A DNA stretch of 23,644 bases from Desulfuromonas sp. SDB (GTDB taxonomy: Bacteria > SDB-A), in contig LKUE01000393.1 in the NCBI GenBank assembly GCA_001412365.1, forward strand, positions 1-23,644. The letters are read 5' to 3'. Position numbers and translations under genes: made by a program. Positions within the stretch are counted from its first letter, which is position 1. Every line of letters starts with the position of its first letter. Below the pieces are notes generated by a model. The model saw nothing but the letters and a program-made list of their open reading frames with translations. It did not search any database and was not told the DNA's origin. Below are positions 10,053-18,538 of this stretch, piece after piece.

Positions 10053-11942
10053 TTATTCCACTGCAATTATTTTGTTCAATATCTGATGATTGGTAGTTTT
10101 CAAAGAGATGAAGTAAGTGCCTGAGGGGATTAGTTGACCTGAATTATCCCTTCTATCCCAGTTTACTGTTTGTTCACCGGGATTAATTTCAAAAGTTTTT
10201 ATCAAACGACCGGTTACATCGAAAATTTCCAAATTTGCCGATGAATTTAAGGGAACTTGATAATTGATTAGCAAATTTTTGAAAAATGGATTGGGTTGAG
10301 AACGGAGGTATAAGTTTTCCGGTACAGTATTGGCGATCGGTTCTTCTACGGACAGGGCATTCAAACCGAAAAAGCCCATAATTGAATCCAATAATGACGC
10401 CCGGGTAGAACCTCCTCCATCAGTTAGTCTTCCCAATTCAAAAGATAATCCGACAGTTCGATGTGAGTCGGGATTATTGGCTACTCCGCAGTTATAGTTA
10501 TTGTCGGCATCTCTGAATATTAAAAAACCGCTTCCGGTGGGATCAATATGATCTATATAGGAATTTTCCCCACCGTAGTTAAAATACATATTATTGGTAA
10601 AAACCCCAGTTTGACCCTGCACCGGTCCGCAATCACCTGCTCCATCTGCACTGGCATTAATTCCGAAAAGAGCATTGAAATTAAATCCTGAATTGTAGCT
10701 AGGATCGTAATACCAGACATCTCCTCCCTCTAAGAACATATTCCCGCCGTTGTTTAAATAGGCTTCCAGTGCCTGGGCTTCCGGGGAGGATACTCCGATC
10801 ACGTAGTTGCTGGAGTAAATGCCCACACAGACAAAAATTGAACTGTACATGGACAATTGCTCGGTAAAAGGAAGAGTAGTTGAGTAATTTCCATTGTAGC
10901 CAAGAACTTGCAGTAAACTGTCAATTACCGGTCCTGAAGTGTGATTGGGATCGGGATCCCACACCAGGTAGTGGTAAGATCCAATGATTATATCAAAACT
11001 GAATGTATCAGTGTAGCAAGTATTGTCGGTCACAATGAGGTTGCAGGTTGCTGCATGCCCCTGGGGAGCAGATGAATCAGCTCTGATTTCAAAAGGATCT
11101 CCGGTGTTGGTAGAAGTGCTGTCAATGAGCAGAGCACCAAAAATTCCGGAATTATCAGTGATGGTTAAATAAGGATCAGAAGTTTCCAAAGTGCCCCACA
11201 CCGTGGTGAAGTCCACTCCTCCTATATTGGTTATGGTAGCAGTTAAATTGACTGTTTCTCCGGGATCTAAATGCCCATTATTATTCCCTCCGCTGTCGTC
11301 AATATCTTTATCCACCATGGCGATGTAAGGATCGGTTCCGGTATAATTTAATGAGATATTGTCGGCTAAGACCTTAGCCGAATTGGTTGCCCCTCAACAG
11401 TAATAACAGGTGTCCAATAAAATAATGGCTACCTGGGAAATATCTAATGGATTTACACCGGGTAAGTTTACCAATTCGCTGTCTAAATTGAAGGTGTAGT
11501 TATTCCAGTTCTGATCAACTGCCTCAATTAGATGAGAGGTATTGGAACTATACCAGGGGCAGTAGGTGGTTTTACGGTAAATTCTGGTCAGTCCCAGGGT
11601 AACCCCGTTACTGTTCAAGTATTTAAGAGTTACCGATGCCCCGGACCAGGCGCTGCTGGTAGCAGCCACTTCAAATTTGGCGTCAACATTAAATTCCAGA
11701 TCAGTAGTGACGATATTAATTATCTGATAAATAAGTGCATAGCCGGATCCATTACCCTTATAAACCTGAACTTCGTAATCCGGATCAGGATCATAAGTGG
11801 TTGCCCTGTTTATAATAACGCTGGAACCACTGGAACTTTGGGTCCAACCCTGTGAAAGATCCTGTTCAAAATCACCGTTAGTTATAAGATGGGCATCACC
11901 GCTGAAATTTAAAACAAGCAATAATGCCAAAAATTGAATCAT
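10053..11942 (-). CDS. Secreted jelly-roll/Rossmann-like protein with in-frame UGA, candidate selenoprotein
   Basis: One frame runs from ATG 11942 (AGGAGGG four bases upstream) to 10053, broken only by UGA at 11396-11394, codon 183. Read through, it gives 629 residues: signal peptide (MIQFLALLLVLNF), a carbohydrate-binding-like jelly roll (about 20-200, NGDFEQDLSQGW to VLADNISL), a CARDB/Ig-like domain (about 205-315, D-P-G-E-T-V-N-L), an alpha/beta ThuA/GATase-like domain (about 318-525, YLVWDPDPNH, LNNGGNMFLEGGDVWYYD), and a Por/T9SS sorting domain. The UGA falls inside the jelly roll, just before its last strand, in D-T-C-Y-Y-C-UGA-G-A-T-N. The part after it (a separate frame could only begin at ATG 11318) has no ribosome site or signal peptide, so this is one gene. 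A SECIS-like hairpin follows the UGA. The alternatives are a nonsense mutation or a sequencing error; without Sec insertion the product ends at 11394. Confidence 0.7.
11362..11381 (-). promoter_or_regulatory. Candidate bacterial SECIS element
   Basis: On the minus strand the sequence TCGGCTAAG-GT-CTTAGCCGA is a perfect 9-bp inverted repeat; drawn with a four-base apical loop it is an 8-bp stem capped by GGUC. It starts 12 nt after the in-frame UGA (11396-11394). Bacterial SECIS hairpins lie within about 40 nt downstream of the UGA and carry a G at the start of the apical loop. The E. coli fdhF loop, AGGUCU in memory, is matched here exactly (A-GGUC-U), and its stem starts about 11 nt after the UGA. 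The bulged U of the E. coli helix is missing. The match is seen in sequence; function is inferred. Confidence 0.6.
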
Positions 11943-12177: not shown

Positions 12178-14643
12178 ATGAAACAGTTTGCATTATGGTT
12201 AACTTTGCTCATTGTTTCCAGCTCTATTATCTTTGCTGATCCTCCTGCCACTTATGATCTTAGAGATGTAGGGGGAGTAAACTACGTGACTTCAGTTAAA
12301 AGTCAGCAGGGAGGAACATGCTGGACTCATGGGGCGATGGCGGCAATGGAGGGGAATCTGTTGATGACCGGAGCCTGGACTAATGCCGGCGAAGTGGGAG
12401 AACCTAATTTAGCCGAATACCACCTGGATTGGTGGAATGGTTTTAACAAATGGAATAATGATGACTTGACTCCTCCAACCGGCAGCGGATTGGATGTTCA
12501 TCAAGGTGGTGATTACATGGTAACCACTGCTTACTTGAGCAGGGGAGAAGGAGCAGTAAGAGATATTGATGGACAATCCTTTGGAAGCGCTCCTCCCCGC
12601 AGATTAGACAGTTATCATTATTATTATCCCCGGGTAGTTCAGTGGTTTGCTACAGATTCGTTGCTGACTGGAATAAATATTATTAAACAAGCCATTATTG
12701 ACTATGGAGTTATGGGAACCTGTATGTGCTACGATAATGCCTATATCTCCAATTATATCCATTATCAACCTCCCACCAGCAGCGACCTTCCCAATCATGC
12801 TATCGCCATTGTGGGATGGGATGATAGTAAGGTGACCCAGGCGCCTCTGCCCGGAGCATGGCTGTGTAAAAACAGTTGGGGAGATGGTTGGGGCTTAGAT
12901 GGATATTTCTGGATATCTTATTATGATAAATGGGCAACCAGGGAACCTCAGATGGGAGCGGTATCTTTTCAGCAGGTAGAATACATGATATACGACACCA
13001 TCTACTACCATGACTATCATGGCTGGAGAGATACTAAAACTGATATCAGTGAAGCGTTTAATGCTTTTTGTGCCCAGGAATATCACACCATTAAATCAGT
13101 TAGCTTTTTCACTGCTGATGACAGCGTGGATTACCTGGTGAAAGTTTACCGCAACTTTAACAATGGTCAATTAACTGATTTAATAGCCGAGGATAGCGGA
13201 TTTTGCCAATATCGCGGATTTTACACTGTGGATTTGACTACTTCCCCCAGTTTTGATCCTGGAGACAGCTTTTATGTTTATTTGAATTTATCTCAAGGGG
13301 GTCATCCTTATGACCGCACCTCCGATGTTCCCGTTCTGCTGGGTGCAAGTTACCGTACTATTGTTGAGTCTTCAGCGGACAGCGGTCAAAGTTACTACTG
13401 GGAAGGTGGAGCTTGGAAGGATTTCTTTGACTGGTCTGGCAATCCTTACCCGGGTACGGGAAACTTCTGCATTAAAGCGTTAGCGGTGAATACCGGTTTA
13501 AACATCAATCCTCAAGAAGATTTCAGGGCAATAGGAGATTCGGGAGGACCATTTACCCCTGATCAGATGATCTATGCAATGACGGTTAACAGTGAACAGG
13601 CAATTAATTATCAGATTAGCATTAATCCCTCGGTCAATTGGTTGGATGTTGCCGGTGCAACCACCGGAACTATTAATCCTGATGATACCGTGGAGATTGA
13701 GTTAAGTTTGAACAGCAATGCTAACAGCCTTAATGACGGAGTTTACGTTGCCAATATTGAATTTGAAAATACTACTAATCAATTGGGAACAACCACTAAA
13801 CAGGTAATTGTGATTGTGGGGTCTCCTTCTGTAATGTATCAATGGACTTTTGACAATGATCCAGGATGGACTGCTCAGTCAGATTGGGCGTTTGGGGTGC
13901 CCACCGGGCAGGGTGGCTCTCACGGCAACCCCGATCCCACCTCCGGACATACCGGAAGCAATGTTTACGGCTATAACTTGAACGGTGACTATCCCAATAA
14001 TTTAGATGAAAGATACCTTACCACCGAAATCATAGATTGTTCAGGGCTTTACAACACCCAGTTAAGTTTCTGGAGATGGCTGGGAGTGGAGGCATCCAGT
14101 TACGATCACGCTTCCATTAGGATAAGCAATGACGGACAGAATTGGCACACCATCTGGTCAAATCCGGATAGTGAAACCGCAGATAACAGCTGGAATCAAT
14201 ATACCTATGATATCTCTGCTTATGCTGATGACCAGTCTTCAGTTCAGATTAGATGGGTAATGGGAACTACTGACGGAGGATGGACTTACTGCGGATGGAA
14301 TATTGACGATGTGGAAATTTTAGGAGTGGAGGAAGTCGGAGTCAATGAAGCTCCTCCCCAGCAACAATATGGTCAATTTTCATTGAATTTTGCCAGTGTA
14401 TCAAGTTCTAACACTCAGATAAGCTATGTACTGCCTTCGGCAGGGATGGTTAAACTTTCTGTTTTTGATGCCAGCGGGAGATTGGTTAATAATATAATCA
14501 ATGAACATCAACCTGCAGGTCAATATCAAATTAATTGGAACAGCACTGCAGGCAATGGAGCACAGGTCTCATCAGGAGTTTACTTCATCCGATTACAAGT
14601 GGACTCTGATAAACTGACTAAAAAACTTCTGATTACCAGATAA
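12178..14643 (+). CDS. Secreted papain-like (C1A) cysteine protease with lectin-like domain and sorting domain
   Basis: Start ATG 12178 follows AAGGAG with an eight-base spacer; the signal peptide is about residues 1-20. The C1 peptidase spans about 22-265: Y-D-L-R-D, then S-Q-Q-G-G-T-C-W (catalytic C48, oxyanion Gln Q43 or Q44, one residue closer than in papain), P-N-H-A-I-A-I-V-G-W (H207) and K-N-S-W-G-D-G-W-G (N232). All catalytic residues are present, and there is no inhibitory propeptide. Residues about 270-430 form a beta domain, about 440-545 a BACON/Ig-like domain (I-N-P-D-D-T-V-E-I-E), and about 550-720 a MAM/jelly-roll binding domain (W-T-F-D-N-D-P-G-W to W-N-I-D-D-V-E-I-L-G). The last 85 residues are a Por/T9SS sorting domain (LSVFDASGRLVNNI, VSSGVYFIRL). 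It is a single gene with a strong hairpin after the stop. The likely role is extracellular protein degradation. Confidence 0.88.
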   Translation: MKQFALWLTLLIVSSSIIFADPPATYDLRDVGGVNYVTSVKSQQGGTCWTHGAMAAMEGNLLMTGAWTNAGEVGEPNLAEYHLDWWNGFNKWNNDDLTPPTGSGLDVHQGGDYMVTTAYLSRGEGAVRDIDGQSFGSAPPRRLDSYHYYYPRVVQWFATDSLLTGINIIKQAIIDYGVMGTCMCYDNAYISNYIHYQPPTSSDLPNHAIAIVGWDDSKVTQAPLPGAWLCKNSWGDGWGLDGYFWISYYDKWATREPQMGAVSFQQVEYMIYDTIYYHDYHGWRDTKTDISEAFNAFCAQEYHTIKSVSFFTADDSVDYLVKVYRNFNNGQLTDLIAEDSGFCQYRGFYTVDLTTSPSFDPGDSFYVYLNLSQGGHPYDRTSDVPVLLGASYRTIVESSADSGQSYYWEGGAWKDFFDWSGNPYPGTGNFCIKALAVNTGLNINPQEDFRAIGDSGGPFTPDQMIYAMTVNSEQAINYQISINPSVNWLDVAGATTGTINPDDTVEIELSLNSNANSLNDGVYVANIEFENTTNQLGTTTKQVIVIVGSPSVMYQWTFDNDPGWTAQSDWAFGVPTGQGGSHGNPDPTSGHTGSNVYGYNLNGDYPNNLDERYLTTEIIDCSGLYNTQLSFWRWLGVEASSYDHASIRISNDGQNWHTIWSNPDSETADNSWNQYTYDISAYADDQSSVQIRWVMGTTDGGWTYCGWNIDDVEILGVEEVGVNEAPPQQQYGQFSLNFASVSSSNTQISYVLPSAGMVKLSVFDASGRLVNNIINEHQPAGQYQINWNSTAGNGAQVSSGVYFIRLQVDSDKLTKKLLITR

Positions 14644-14730: not shown

Positions 14731-16635
14731 ATGGAAGACCGAGAAGAACTTGAACAGAAATTATCCTCAATTAAGAATCCCCGGGAAAAACTTGATTTAC
14801 TGATAAAATTAGCCAATAAATATTTCCAGTATGACAATGCTAAAACTTTGAAATATGCTCAAGAAGCTATTGAACTGGCGGATAAACTAAACAATATCCC
14901 CCAGATGGCTTCTGCTTATGGGGCATTAGGAATGGTAAAAGCTTATCAGGGGGAGTTAAAGCAATCTCTGGAAATTTTTTATAAAGCATTGAAATTACTG
15001 GATGGTATTGATGATAAATATACAAAGAGTGATTTGTTTAACAAAATTGGTCTTAATCTTTTTTATTTAAGAGATTTTAAATCATCTATAGATTATCTTA
15101 AAAAATCGAAGAAAATTGCCACAGAAATCCAAAACATAGGGATTCTTACTAATGCATTGAGTAATCTAGGTTTAGTATATCAAGAAATCGGTCAATATCA
15201 GGATTCATTGAAATATAATATTGAGACTTTAAAATTAGAGAGAAAAAACAATTTTAATTACAATAGGATTGCATCATCCTTAGGAAATATTGGAACTCTG
15301 TACTCAATGCTTAAAAATCCTGATAAAGCGTTGGATTATTACCGGGAAAGTTTAAAAATGTATGTCGCTATAAAATTTACTAAAGGAATTGCAGGACAAT
15401 TATCCAATATTGCAGATATCTACGAAAATATCGGAGAAGATCATAAAGCCTTAAACTGTTATATATTTGCCTTAAAATATGCTGAAAAGATTGGATACCA
15501 GGAATACATAGGAATTATTAATAACAATCTGGGTATTTATTACAAAAAACAAAATCAAATTAATAAAGCTCTGTTTCACCTTCATAAATCATTGAAAATT
15601 AATGAGAGTATGTCTGATCTATATTCAATTGGTAACAAGTTGAATATTATTGCGGACATTGAAATTTGTCAGTTAAATTTCAAGAAGGCAAAAAAACTTC
15701 TGGATAAAGCATGGAAAATTGCAAATGAAATAGAACATTTGAAATTAAAATCTGAAATTGCTCAAACCTATTCAACTTATTATCAGCATAAACAGAATTA
15801 TAAGAAAGCTATTGAATATGAGAAGATTGCCGATCAGATAAGTGATGACCTGTTCAATGTAAATGTTTCCGAAAAAATTACTGAATTGCAAACCAGATAT
15901 GAAGTTGAACAAAAACAAAGGGAGTCGGAATTATTGAAGATGGAAGCTGAGATTCATAAATTACGCAATATTGAATTGACTGAAGCTAAAAAGACTCTGG
16001 AAGAGGAAAAAGAAAAATCGGAAAAATTACTGTTGAATATCATTCCTGCTAAAGTACTGGCTAATTTAAAAGCAGGAGAAGAAGTCAAACCTATGATGTT
16101 TCCGAAAATTACTGTTTATGTATCTGATATCGTGGGATTTACCAAAATTGCATTTGATATTGAACCGGAATTGTTGATTCAGGAATTAAATGTAATCTTT
16201 ACTGAATTTGATAATATTTTTCAAAACTACGGTTGTGAAAGGATAATGACTATTGGTGATGCTTATCTGGCAGTAGCTGGACTTTTTGAAGATGAAATTG
16301 AAGATCAGGCGGAAAGAATATGCCAAGGAGCAATGAACTGCTTGGATTTTTTAAACACCAGGAATAAATCTTCTAAATACCCCTGGTTGATGAGAACAGG
16401 AATTCATACTGGGTGGGCTTACGGAGGCATCATTGGTCAACATAAATATCTTTATGATGTCTTCGGGGAAGCAGTGGATATAGCACAGTATATTCAAACC
16501 CGAATTAAACCAATGCATTTTGGATTATCTTCACAAACCTACAATTTACTGTCATCTAAAAGTTCACTGAAAATAATTGATAAACATCATACTGAACACT
16601 ATCCCCAGTTGGAAATAATTGAAGCGGAGATGTAA
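14731..16635 (+). CDS. TPR-linked class III nucleotidyl cyclase, metal-site (C1-like) subunit
   Basis: The 634-residue cytoplasmic protein has about eight to nine tetratricopeptide repeats (about 20-375, with A-L-x-Y-Y-x-x-S-L-K-x-x-x blocks), a coiled-coil/transducer segment (about 380-450: LQTRYEVEQKQRESELLKME, then SEKLLLNIIPAKVLANL) and a class III cyclase domain (about 458-634). The two metal-binding Asp are present: D466 in V-S-D-I-V-G-F-T and D510 in T-I-G-D-A-Y. The purine-selecting Lys/Glu position is M506, D576 (Y-D-V-F-G) is kept, and the transition-state Asn and Arg are D583 and Y587. A homodimer therefore lacks a complete site, but one with the next gene's product would have it. 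Start ATG 14731 has no ribosome site. It abuts the next cyclase gene. Confidence 0.85.
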   Translation: MEDREELEQKLSSIKNPREKLDLLIKLANKYFQYDNAKTLKYAQEAIELADKLNNIPQMASAYGALGMVKAYQGELKQSLEIFYKALKLLDGIDDKYTKSDLFNKIGLNLFYLRDFKSSIDYLKKSKKIATEIQNIGILTNALSNLGLVYQEIGQYQDSLKYNIETLKLERKNNFNYNRIASSLGNIGTLYSMLKNPDKALDYYRESLKMYVAIKFTKGIAGQLSNIADIYENIGEDHKALNCYIFALKYAEKIGYQEYIGIINNNLGIYYKKQNQINKALFHLHKSLKINESMSDLYSIGNKLNIIADIEICQLNFKKAKKLLDKAWKIANEIEHLKLKSEIAQTYSTYYQHKQNYKKAIEYEKIADQISDDLFNVNVSEKITELQTRYEVEQKQRESELLKMEAEIHKLRNIELTEAKKTLEEEKEKSEKLLLNIIPAKVLANLKAGEEVKPMMFPKITVYVSDIVGFTKIAFDIEPELLIQELNVIFTEFDNIFQNYGCERIMTIGDAYLAVAGLFEDEIEDQAERICQGAMNCLDFLNTRNKSSKYPWLMRTGIHTGWAYGGIIGQHKYLYDVFGEAVDIAQYIQTRIKPMHFGLSSQTYNLLSSKSSLKIIDKHHTEHYPQLEIIEAEM

Positions 16636-16639
16636 TTTG
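16626..16639 (+). promoter_or_regulatory. GGAG site and TTG start coupling the two cyclase genes
   Basis: GGAG at 16626-16629 sits inside the end of the first cyclase gene, seven bases before TTG 16637, which lies one base after the upstream TAA (16633-16635). This decides the start of the second cyclase and implies translational coupling, consistent with making the two subunits in fixed ratio. Confidence 0.65.
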
Positions 16640-18538
16640 TCTGAAATTGAAAAATTAGAACGACAATTTTCAGAGGCAATTGACAATAAAAATAAAATTG
16701 AAATTGCTTTAAAAATTACTAAAGCATCTTATTTTGATGATTTTGAAAAATCCAGATTTTATGCCATTGAAATTATAACACTTTCAGTTCGTGAAAAAAA
16801 CAGATATTTAATGGCACGTGGTTTGAGTTATTTAGGCACTGCTCTAGGCAATATGGATATATTAAACAAGTCACTAATATGTTTTAAAAAAGCAATGGAA
16901 ATTTTTCAAGAGATTAATGATTTGGAAAAAGTCTGTTTTAGCTGTAATAATCTAGGTTATTCCTATCTGAGAACATCTAATTATAAAAAAGCATTATTAT
17001 ATTTTCAGCAAGGATTGGAGATTGCAGAAGAACATGAATATTTACAGATAGGAGCAGTCATTTTACAGAATATTGGTCAGTTATATGCTCATATCAGTGA
17101 TTTAGAAAAAGCAATGGATTACTACCTCAAGGCACTTAAATTGTATGAAACTGATCCTGAATATTATATTACAAATCTGGCTATAGTTTACAGTTCAATT
17201 GGTGGTTTGCAAAAAAGCTTAAGAAATTATGAAAAATCAGTGTATTACCATCAAAAATCATTAGAAATTTATCAAAAAATAAATGATGATCTGGGAATTG
17301 CGGGGCAGATGTGTAATCTTGGAAGTATATTTCATATCCAGAATAAGACTGATAAAGCAATTAAATATCTGAATTCAGCATTAGAAAAAGCAGAACAACT
17401 AAATAATTTAGAGTTTATTCAAGTTACATGTAATAATTTAGGCACATTTTACTTAAGTTTAAAAAATTATGATATGGCAATATCATATTTGCTTAAAGCA
17501 TTGCAAATAGCCGAAGGAATTGGGAACTTGTTAAGTTCATTTGACAATTATCAATTAATAGGAGAAATATATTTAAAGAAGGGAGATCTTCATAAATGCT
17601 CTGAATATCTCCACAAGGCTTTAAATTTAATTGGTAAAGTTAAGGATCTTGAATTTATCCAAAAATTGTACCGGAGTTTATCAGAACTAAATTACTCTAT
17701 GAAAAATTACAGAGAATCTCTGGACTATTTCAAGAAATCAATGGAAATAAAAGAAAAATATTTTGATGAAAGCAGAAACCGTCAGATAAATGAAATGGAG
17801 ATTAAATATGAAGTGGAAAAGAAACAAAAAGAAGCGAAGATAGCTAAAGCAGAAGCAGAGATGTACCGGTTAAAGAATATTGAACTGGAAAAAGCATATC
17901 AGCAAATTGAAAAGGAAAAAAATAAAACAGACCATCTTTTGCTGACCATTTTACCGGCAAAAGTAGCATTGGAATTGAAAAACTATGGATACAGTTTACC
18001 TCATTCCTATGAAAATGTTACTGTTTATATATCCGAATTCAGATTATTTGAGGACATACAAAGAAATTTCACAGCAGAGGAGATAATCCGCCATTTAAAT
18101 GAGATATTTGAGATTTTCGATGAGAATTTTGAAAAAATGAATTCGGAGAAAATAAAGACATTCGGAGATAGATATCTGGCAGTTTCCGGAATGCCCATGG
18201 AAGATGAGAATCATGCTTTAAATATTCTCAAGGCAGCCAGGAAAAACCTGGACTTTATTGATAAGCGTAATGAGGAATTAGGTTTAAATTGGGAGATAAA
18301 TATCGGGATCCATAGCGGTAAAGTAATCGGGGGAATTGTGGGAGTGAAGAAGTATCTATATGATATTTTTGGGGACACTATAAATACTGCTGCCAGGATT
18401 TTAGAGTATGGTCAGCCCATGAAATTAAATTTTTCCCATACTACCTATAATCTGGTATCTGATTATATAAAAAATCCTGAATTTAAGGAAACTGAAGTAA
18501 GAGGAAAAGGAAAGATGGGAATTTACTCGATTAGATAA
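16637..18538 (+). CDS. TPR-linked class III adenylate cyclase, substrate-site (C2-like) subunit
   Basis: The 633-residue paralogue of the preceding cyclase has the same layout: TPRs (about 20-375), coiled-coil/transducer (about 380-455: IKYEVEKKQKEAKIAKAEAE, DHLLLTILPAKVALEL) and cyclase domain (about 460-633). The residues that recognise ATP and stabilise the transition state are all present: K507 (E-K-I-K-T-F-G), D576 (Y-D-I-F-G), N583 and R587 (T-I-N-T-A-A-R). The first metal Asp is replaced by E467, and the usual D-I-V-G-F-T is E-F-R-L-F-E; the second metal Asp, D511, remains. This is the mirror image of the first gene's losses. Lys plus Asp predicts ATP, not GTP. TTG 16637 is chosen over TTG 16619 because of the GGAG site and because the resulting N-terminus matches its paralogues. 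Confidence 0.85.
   Translation: MSEIEKLERQFSEAIDNKNKIEIALKITKASYFDDFEKSRFYAIEIITLSVREKNRYLMARGLSYLGTALGNMDILNKSLICFKKAMEIFQEINDLEKVCFSCNNLGYSYLRTSNYKKALLYFQQGLEIAEEHEYLQIGAVILQNIGQLYAHISDLEKAMDYYLKALKLYETDPEYYITNLAIVYSSIGGLQKSLRNYEKSVYYHQKSLEIYQKINDDLGIAGQMCNLGSIFHIQNKTDKAIKYLNSALEKAEQLNNLEFIQVTCNNLGTFYLSLKNYDMAISYLLKALQIAEGIGNLLSSFDNYQLIGEIYLKKGDLHKCSEYLHKALNLIGKVKDLEFIQKLYRSLSELNYSMKNYRESLDYFKKSMEIKEKYFDESRNRQINEMEIKYEVEKKQKEAKIAKAEAEMYRLKNIELEKAYQQIEKEKNKTDHLLLTILPAKVALELKNYGYSLPHSYENVTVYISEFRLFEDIQRNFTAEEIIRHLNEIFEIFDENFEKMNSEKIKTFGDRYLAVSGMPMEDENHALNILKAARKNLDFIDKRNEELGLNWEINIGIHSGKVIGGIVGVKKYLYDIFGDTINTAARILEYGQPMKLNFSHTTYNLVSDYIKNPEFKETEVRGKGKMGIYSIR

Follow-up and report, generated by a model that had tools for sequence, protein, structure and literature searches.

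A very probable new selenoprotein family built on a predicted jelly-roll domain in uncultured bacteria

The gene and its predicted product

The window, by which we mean the whole 23,644-nucleotide stretch of DNA analysed, carries on its minus strand a single reading frame (11942-11397 plus 11393-10053) whose sole break is a UGA at 11396-11394. The initial annotation had claimed that two minus-strand frames are joined save for this UGA and that readthrough yields 629 residues, and both points held. The gene (10053-11942, minus strand) read through in this way encodes a 629-residue protein with the UGA as residue 183 (U183), in the context D-T-C179-Y-Y-C182-U183-G184, and homologues share the matching layout. 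TGA also terminates genes in the usual way in the window (4 of 16) and is therefore not globally reassigned.

The product comprises, in order, an N-terminal hydrophobic signal, a jelly roll bearing the selenocysteine (Sec) position (residues 18-203; 11334-11891), an Ig-like beta domain (residues ~206-322; 10977-11327), an alpha/beta, Rossmann-like domain (residues ~323-528; 10359-10976) and a type A T9SS sorting domain (residues 550-626; 10065-10295), all on the minus strand. The Ig-like domain is assigned from the secondary structure of a full-length structural model, which also predicts the alpha/beta domain. The sorting tail exceeded the cut-offs of both TIGR04183 (37.4 bits, cut-off 23) and PF18962 (30.1 bits, cut-off 27), and from this tail and the signal we infer that the protein is exported as T9SS cargo.

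Tails of the same type occur on several neighbouring genes of the window. The adjoining, divergently transcribed gene (12178-14643) encodes a papain-like C1 protease with a lectin-like domain and a T9SS tail. Beyond it, 14731-18538 holds two tandem TPR proteins of similar sequence, of which the first also has an adenylate/guanylate cyclase domain (PF00211); a shorter TPR protein comes next.

Conservation of the UGA and its hairpin

Twelve nucleotides past the UGA (spacer 11393-11382) stands a hairpin, UCGGCUAA-GGUC-UUAGCCGA, at 11381-11362 of the minus strand. The initial annotation had read this element as a SECIS with a GGUC loop; its position and loop were confirmed, and the stem, described there as nine perfect base pairs, has eight, as the following pair would be U:C. 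With a loop of 4 nt, a stem of 8 bp and a UGA-to-loop distance of 20 nt, the hairpin satisfies the published bSECIS model (loop of 3-9 nt, stem of 4-16 bp, G in the first two loop positions, a distance of 16-37 nt to the UGA and MFE <= -7.5; PMC13188914). A claimed likeness to E. coli fdhF also held: both loops read AGGUCU, and in the fdhF sequence that we fetched for comparison the loop lies 18 nt from the UGA. The window hairpin is more stable than dinucleotide-shuffled sequences (z -2.6 to -2.9), a result that is modest and not decisive by itself; the decisive evidence is comparative, namely the presence of both UGA and hairpin in 119 of 120 domains. Rfam, searched at a relaxed threshold, returned nothing relevant at this site. 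A covariance model (R1) had one strong match in the window's genome, this gene itself (next matches E ~0.1), and the SECIS type is therefore family-specific there.

Homologues were found in 57 genomes from the window's phylum, WOR-3, Eisenbacteria and, in a single genome, Acidobacteriota; these are uncultured organisms, represented almost entirely by MAGs. Four genomes of the window's phylum were searched with the N-terminal domain, yielding one copy in G001 and three in G003. These copies are ~50% identical, and every one contains a single in-frame TGA with the hairpin after it. A scan of GTDB genomes added 32 further loci, and an alignment search of 147 WOR-3 genomes found domain copies in 50 (loci L027, L028 and L029, recorded as Cloacimonadota or Latescibacterota, were counted under WOR-3 in the collection used). 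The gene was also present in 3 of 47 Eisenbacteria genomes and in 1 of a sample of 396 from Acidobacteriota. Homologous domains are 36-54% identical to that of the window, with conservation on both sides of the UGA.

After removal of identical copies, 120 domains were readable at the site, 119 with an in-frame UGA and one with Cys, making Sec nearly obligate in the jelly-roll family. The initial annotation had proposed looking for Cys in place of the UGA, and this single case (L104; G025:C1, ~2500100-2500670) has lost the GGUC hairpin. We regard it as a natural Sec-to-Cys replacement; its alignment at the site includes a one-residue insertion, and the other eight of nine domain matches in the same genome all retain an in-frame TGA. 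A far relative (L049) has Glu/Gly at the Sec position. Another copy (L107; G006:C196:4674-5246) contains two in-frame TGA codons within one domain.

All 119 UGA-containing domains have a hairpin that fits the bSECIS model (MFE <= -9.2). The loop is GGUC at 108 of these sites and GGUU or AGUU at the others, and the distance from the UGA is 14-26 nt, mostly 20 or 17. The 14-nt values (six sequences) are a script artefact in which hairpins with an AGUU loop were mislabelled GGAA; by eye these have the same stem, GGCGGA/UCCGCC.

Compensatory changes in the stem, a further check suggested by the initial annotation, were found. Over the first 39 aligned sites, we counted 25 double-changed cells compared with 4.2 in shuffles, and the signal was lost when the pairing partner was slid out of register. 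On a tree built without the hairpin columns, stem pairs 2, 3 and 6 showed 10-15 changes per strand; on supported independent branches the partner made the matched change in 6 of 6, 5 of 5 and ~4 of 5 cases, never the opposite, such that pooled over the three pairs it changed the same way in ~15 of 16. The residues flanking the loop Val are coupled (K with F in 61 domains, E with S in 40 and R with L in 6), and so are their codons: AAG is found with UUC or UUA (K-F, K-L), GAG with UCC (E-S) and AGG with CUC (R-L), with UGG-UAC (W-Y) and CAG-UGU (Q-C) as further combinations. Because the amino acids track base pairing, the RNA dictates the residues flanking the loop, and protein constraint alone cannot account for the matched changes in the stem.

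Selenocysteine decoding and novelty of the family

The genome from which the window derives contains selA, selB, selC and selD, all of which the initial annotation had suggested seeking there. selA (E 1.9e-135) is clustered on one contig (C305) with selB and a tRNA-Sec gene bearing a UCA anticodon. selD occurs twice (L181 on C432 and L182 on C363), with an in-frame UGA in one copy, which we take to be the known Sec form of SelD. Together, these genes and the UGA-bearing selD imply that UGA is decoded as Sec in this genome, which encodes at least one selenoprotein besides the jelly-roll protein. The SelD without a UGA is part of an open frame of 737 residues that may be a fusion, and the same pair of SelD genes is found in G001. 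A second match to the tRNA-Sec model (L003; G000:C365:12690-12776; 52 bits, cut-off 47) is perhaps a long-arm tRNA of another type.

Across the 147 WOR-3 genomes, selA was detected in 46 of 50 carriers of the domain versus 15 of 97 non-carriers (Fisher p = 2.6e-20). Four carriers lack selA. Two of them (G113 and G128) have full-length selB; in a third (G091) selB is split into two pieces, one of which lies at a contig end, and selD bears a UGA; and the last (G027, 1.3 Mb) has only weak selB fragments. Incomplete assemblies adequately explain these four absences.

We conclude that selenocysteine is very probably inserted at the UGA at 11396-11394 and that the gene represents a new selenoprotein family that uses an established decoding system, a conclusion drawn from comparison, with no measurement of protein or selenium. 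The comparison also gives good support to a working SECIS and to a single product of the locus. The central claim of the initial annotation, that the UGA is read as Sec by way of a SECIS, thus held, with UGA and hairpin kept in relatives and the machinery present. The observations named there as refuting it (a sense codon at the site in reads or close relatives, absence of Sec machinery, or homologues lacking both UGA/Cys and the hairpin) were not met. The system resembles that of E. coli FdhF in its in-frame UGA, a hairpin just downstream, the loop sequence and the presence of SelA, SelB, SelC and SelD, but the protein has no relation to FdhF in family, fold or export route, and the jelly-roll Sec is not the Mo/W ligand of formate dehydrogenase.

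No matching entry, and none with T9SS or jelly-roll features, appears in a 2026 catalogue of 119 prokaryotic selenoprotein families (PMC13188914), in line with the earlier statement that no exported T9SS-type jelly-roll selenoprotein was known. NCBIfam release 20 (June 2026) gave matches only to the T9SS tail or weak, unrelated ones and has no model for the family, and our searches of the literature on secreted bacterial selenoproteins and related subjects found no description of it.

Fold, partner thiols and possible function

AlphaFold2 predicts the Sec domain to be a jelly roll (pLDDT 93.9, pTM 0.90) with Sec in the loop between its last two strands, in keeping with the earlier claim that the two frames join inside one jelly-roll domain. 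Foldseek matched the predicted structure to CBM30, CBM22 and CBM16 chains (E 5e-7), and VIA-align gave Z scores of ~11-14 to CBM chains, including a porphyran-binding CBM (8xmz; Z 14.1, rmsd 2.5 over 135 residues). The fold is thus predicted to be a CBM-like beta-sandwich; there are no carbohydrate-binding data. With CBM4/9, CBM16, CBM22 and CBM30 the domain shares the beta-sandwich jelly roll, on which the predicted structure aligns, and an N-terminal N-G-D-F-E motif, but identity to the superposed CBMs and related sandwiches is only 10-19%, no family cut-off is reached, and in the new family Sec occupies the last loop. CBM_4_9 (PF02018) scored 14.7 bits against a Pfam cut-off of 25.9, no Pfam or NCBIfam family scored above cut-off for the Sec domain, and a profile search of PDB sequences returned nothing significant. 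Searching folds with the full-length model (pTM 0.49) returned only multi-domain beta-sandwich matches, which were uninformative for the middle domain.

Invariant or near-invariant residues are N22, F25, W33, Q73, G117, W146, E156, Sec183, A189 and V191, the last two encoded within the SECIS. Downstream of the Sec domain lie Ig-like and alpha/beta domains (as in the window), other beta modules in place of these, or the sorting tail alone (L045, 301 residues). Given these varied partners, the Sec domain is the common denominator and is mobile.

The C-x-x-C beside Sec that the initial annotation had pointed out is present in the window gene and is not conserved: position 179 is not Cys in sister genomes, and the residue preceding Sec (Cys182; 11397-11399) is Cys in 71 of 119 domains and is replaced by Gly in 31, by Thr in 10 and by others in 7, with Ser and Asp among the replacements. 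Cys182 was therefore rejected as an obligatory partner of Sec. The comparison drawn with the GCUG tail of mammalian thioredoxin reductase is likewise local only, resting on a shared Cys-Sec-Gly; there Sec sits in the C-terminal tail of a flavoenzyme, whereas in the window gene it is internal, in a jelly-roll loop, and the adjoining Cys is replaced in 48 of 119 family members. Another candidate partner is Cys128 of a C-P-W motif (11559-11561), which is Cys in 84 of 119. A Cys at 182, 128 or 98 (window numbering) is present in 118 of 119 domains, the exception being a fragment, from which we infer that a partner thiol can be placed near the selenol in three alternative ways; no spatial distances were measured.

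The neighbour of the gene in several WOR-3 loci is a lipoprotein with a T-D/E-D-x-U-x-F-C motif that itself contains an in-frame UGA. It is followed by a TlpA/AhpC-type thioredoxin, by DUF6029 and by a membrane 4Fe-4S protein, and Omp28-like T9SS proteins lie upstream, an arrangement that we interpret as a redox neighbourhood outside the cytoplasm. It is confined to some WOR-3 loci and is absent beside the window gene. The lipoprotein (L019:10312-10894, L021:10444-11151, L024:8569-9151, L028 and L039:11341-11932) has a DsbA/Omp28-like thioredoxin fold with its UGA in a UxxC, and scored 44.8 bits to NCBIfam NF045500 (cut-off 200); we consider it a divergent second exported selenoprotein, distantly related to Omp28_seleno of NCBIfam. 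The Omp28-related selenoprotein (NF045500; GOS_C in PMC13188914), a relative of which thus neighbours the gene in WOR-3, differs from the jelly-roll protein in its thioredoxin-like fold and UxxC and has no homology to it.

In the mechanism we propose, the GGUC hairpin 12 nt downstream of the UGA would recruit a SelB-tRNA-Sec complex, Sec would be inserted, and translation would run on to the 629-residue protein, which would be exported by means of its type IX sorting tail. The selenol might then cycle with a Cys at one of the three alternative positions and be reduced by thioredoxin-fold partners. Our confidence in Sec insertion and in the family does not extend to this redox step. That the selenol forms a selenol/disulfide redox centre at the cell surface is an inference, with no substrate or catalytic residue established, and could as readily prove wrong as right; it remains our best reading, evenly poised against ligand or structural roles.

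The strongest alternative is that Sec is inserted and binds a metal, serves as a site of covalent attachment or forms a structural Se-S cross-link, the protein being a carbohydrate-binding or adhesive one at the surface. Its fold is that of a carbohydrate-binding module rather than a redoxin, the flanking Cys is not strictly kept (Gly, Thr, Ser or Asp instead) and the domain is shuffled among architectures. Against this stand the near-universal Cys at one of three positions (118 of 119), as expected for a Se-S pair, and the UxxC selenoprotein, TlpA-like thioredoxin and 4Fe-4S protein beside the gene in several WOR-3 loci, and we place this alternative slightly behind the redox reading.

A second possibility, that the UGA mainly terminates translation and is read through only in a regulated or leaky manner, so that a short jelly roll is made along with a minor extended form, is highly improbable. 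In its favour, release factor always competes at Sec UGA codons. However, the short form would lack both the sorting tail and the last strand of the domain, and because of that missing strand we infer that function does not reside in the truncated product; in addition, conservation after the UGA equals that before it, and the hairpin is a standard SECIS that co-occurs with selA. Reading of the UGA as a standard amino acid such as Trp or Gly, through a reassigned code or a suppressor, is supported by the open frame alone and is virtually ruled out by the 4 of 16 window genes that end in TGA, the lack of Trp or Gly at the site in 120 readable domains, with Cys the sole replacement, and the tRNA-Sec gene and SelB in the genome. 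Nothing speaks for a nonsense mutation, gene decay or a sequencing error, and all three are refuted by the same UGA in 119 distinct domains from 57 genomes and four phyla, with compensated hairpins.

Sec insertion in a new family, our preferred reading, bears on how selenoproteins are found. In nearly all known selenoproteins, Cys relatives far outnumber Sec forms (PMC13188914), and finders of the deep-Sep type rely on Cys forms and admit missing families without them (PMC12013277). Here the ratio is reversed (119:1), and Cys-dependent finders therefore miss the family; standard gene calling also splits these proteins at the UGA, exposing a blind spot of selenoprotein discovery. On a bolder reading, for which we see the case as balanced, the family is a mobile exported Sec domain with a CBM fold, in which Cys can hardly ever take the place of Sec and which would perform surface selenol chemistry beyond the reach of Cys, together with other exported selenoproteins, across four phyla of uncultured bacteria. 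With 119 Sec forms to one Cys form in a non-redoxin fold predicted to be exported to the surface, the family offers a clean system for determining what Sec does beyond Cys.
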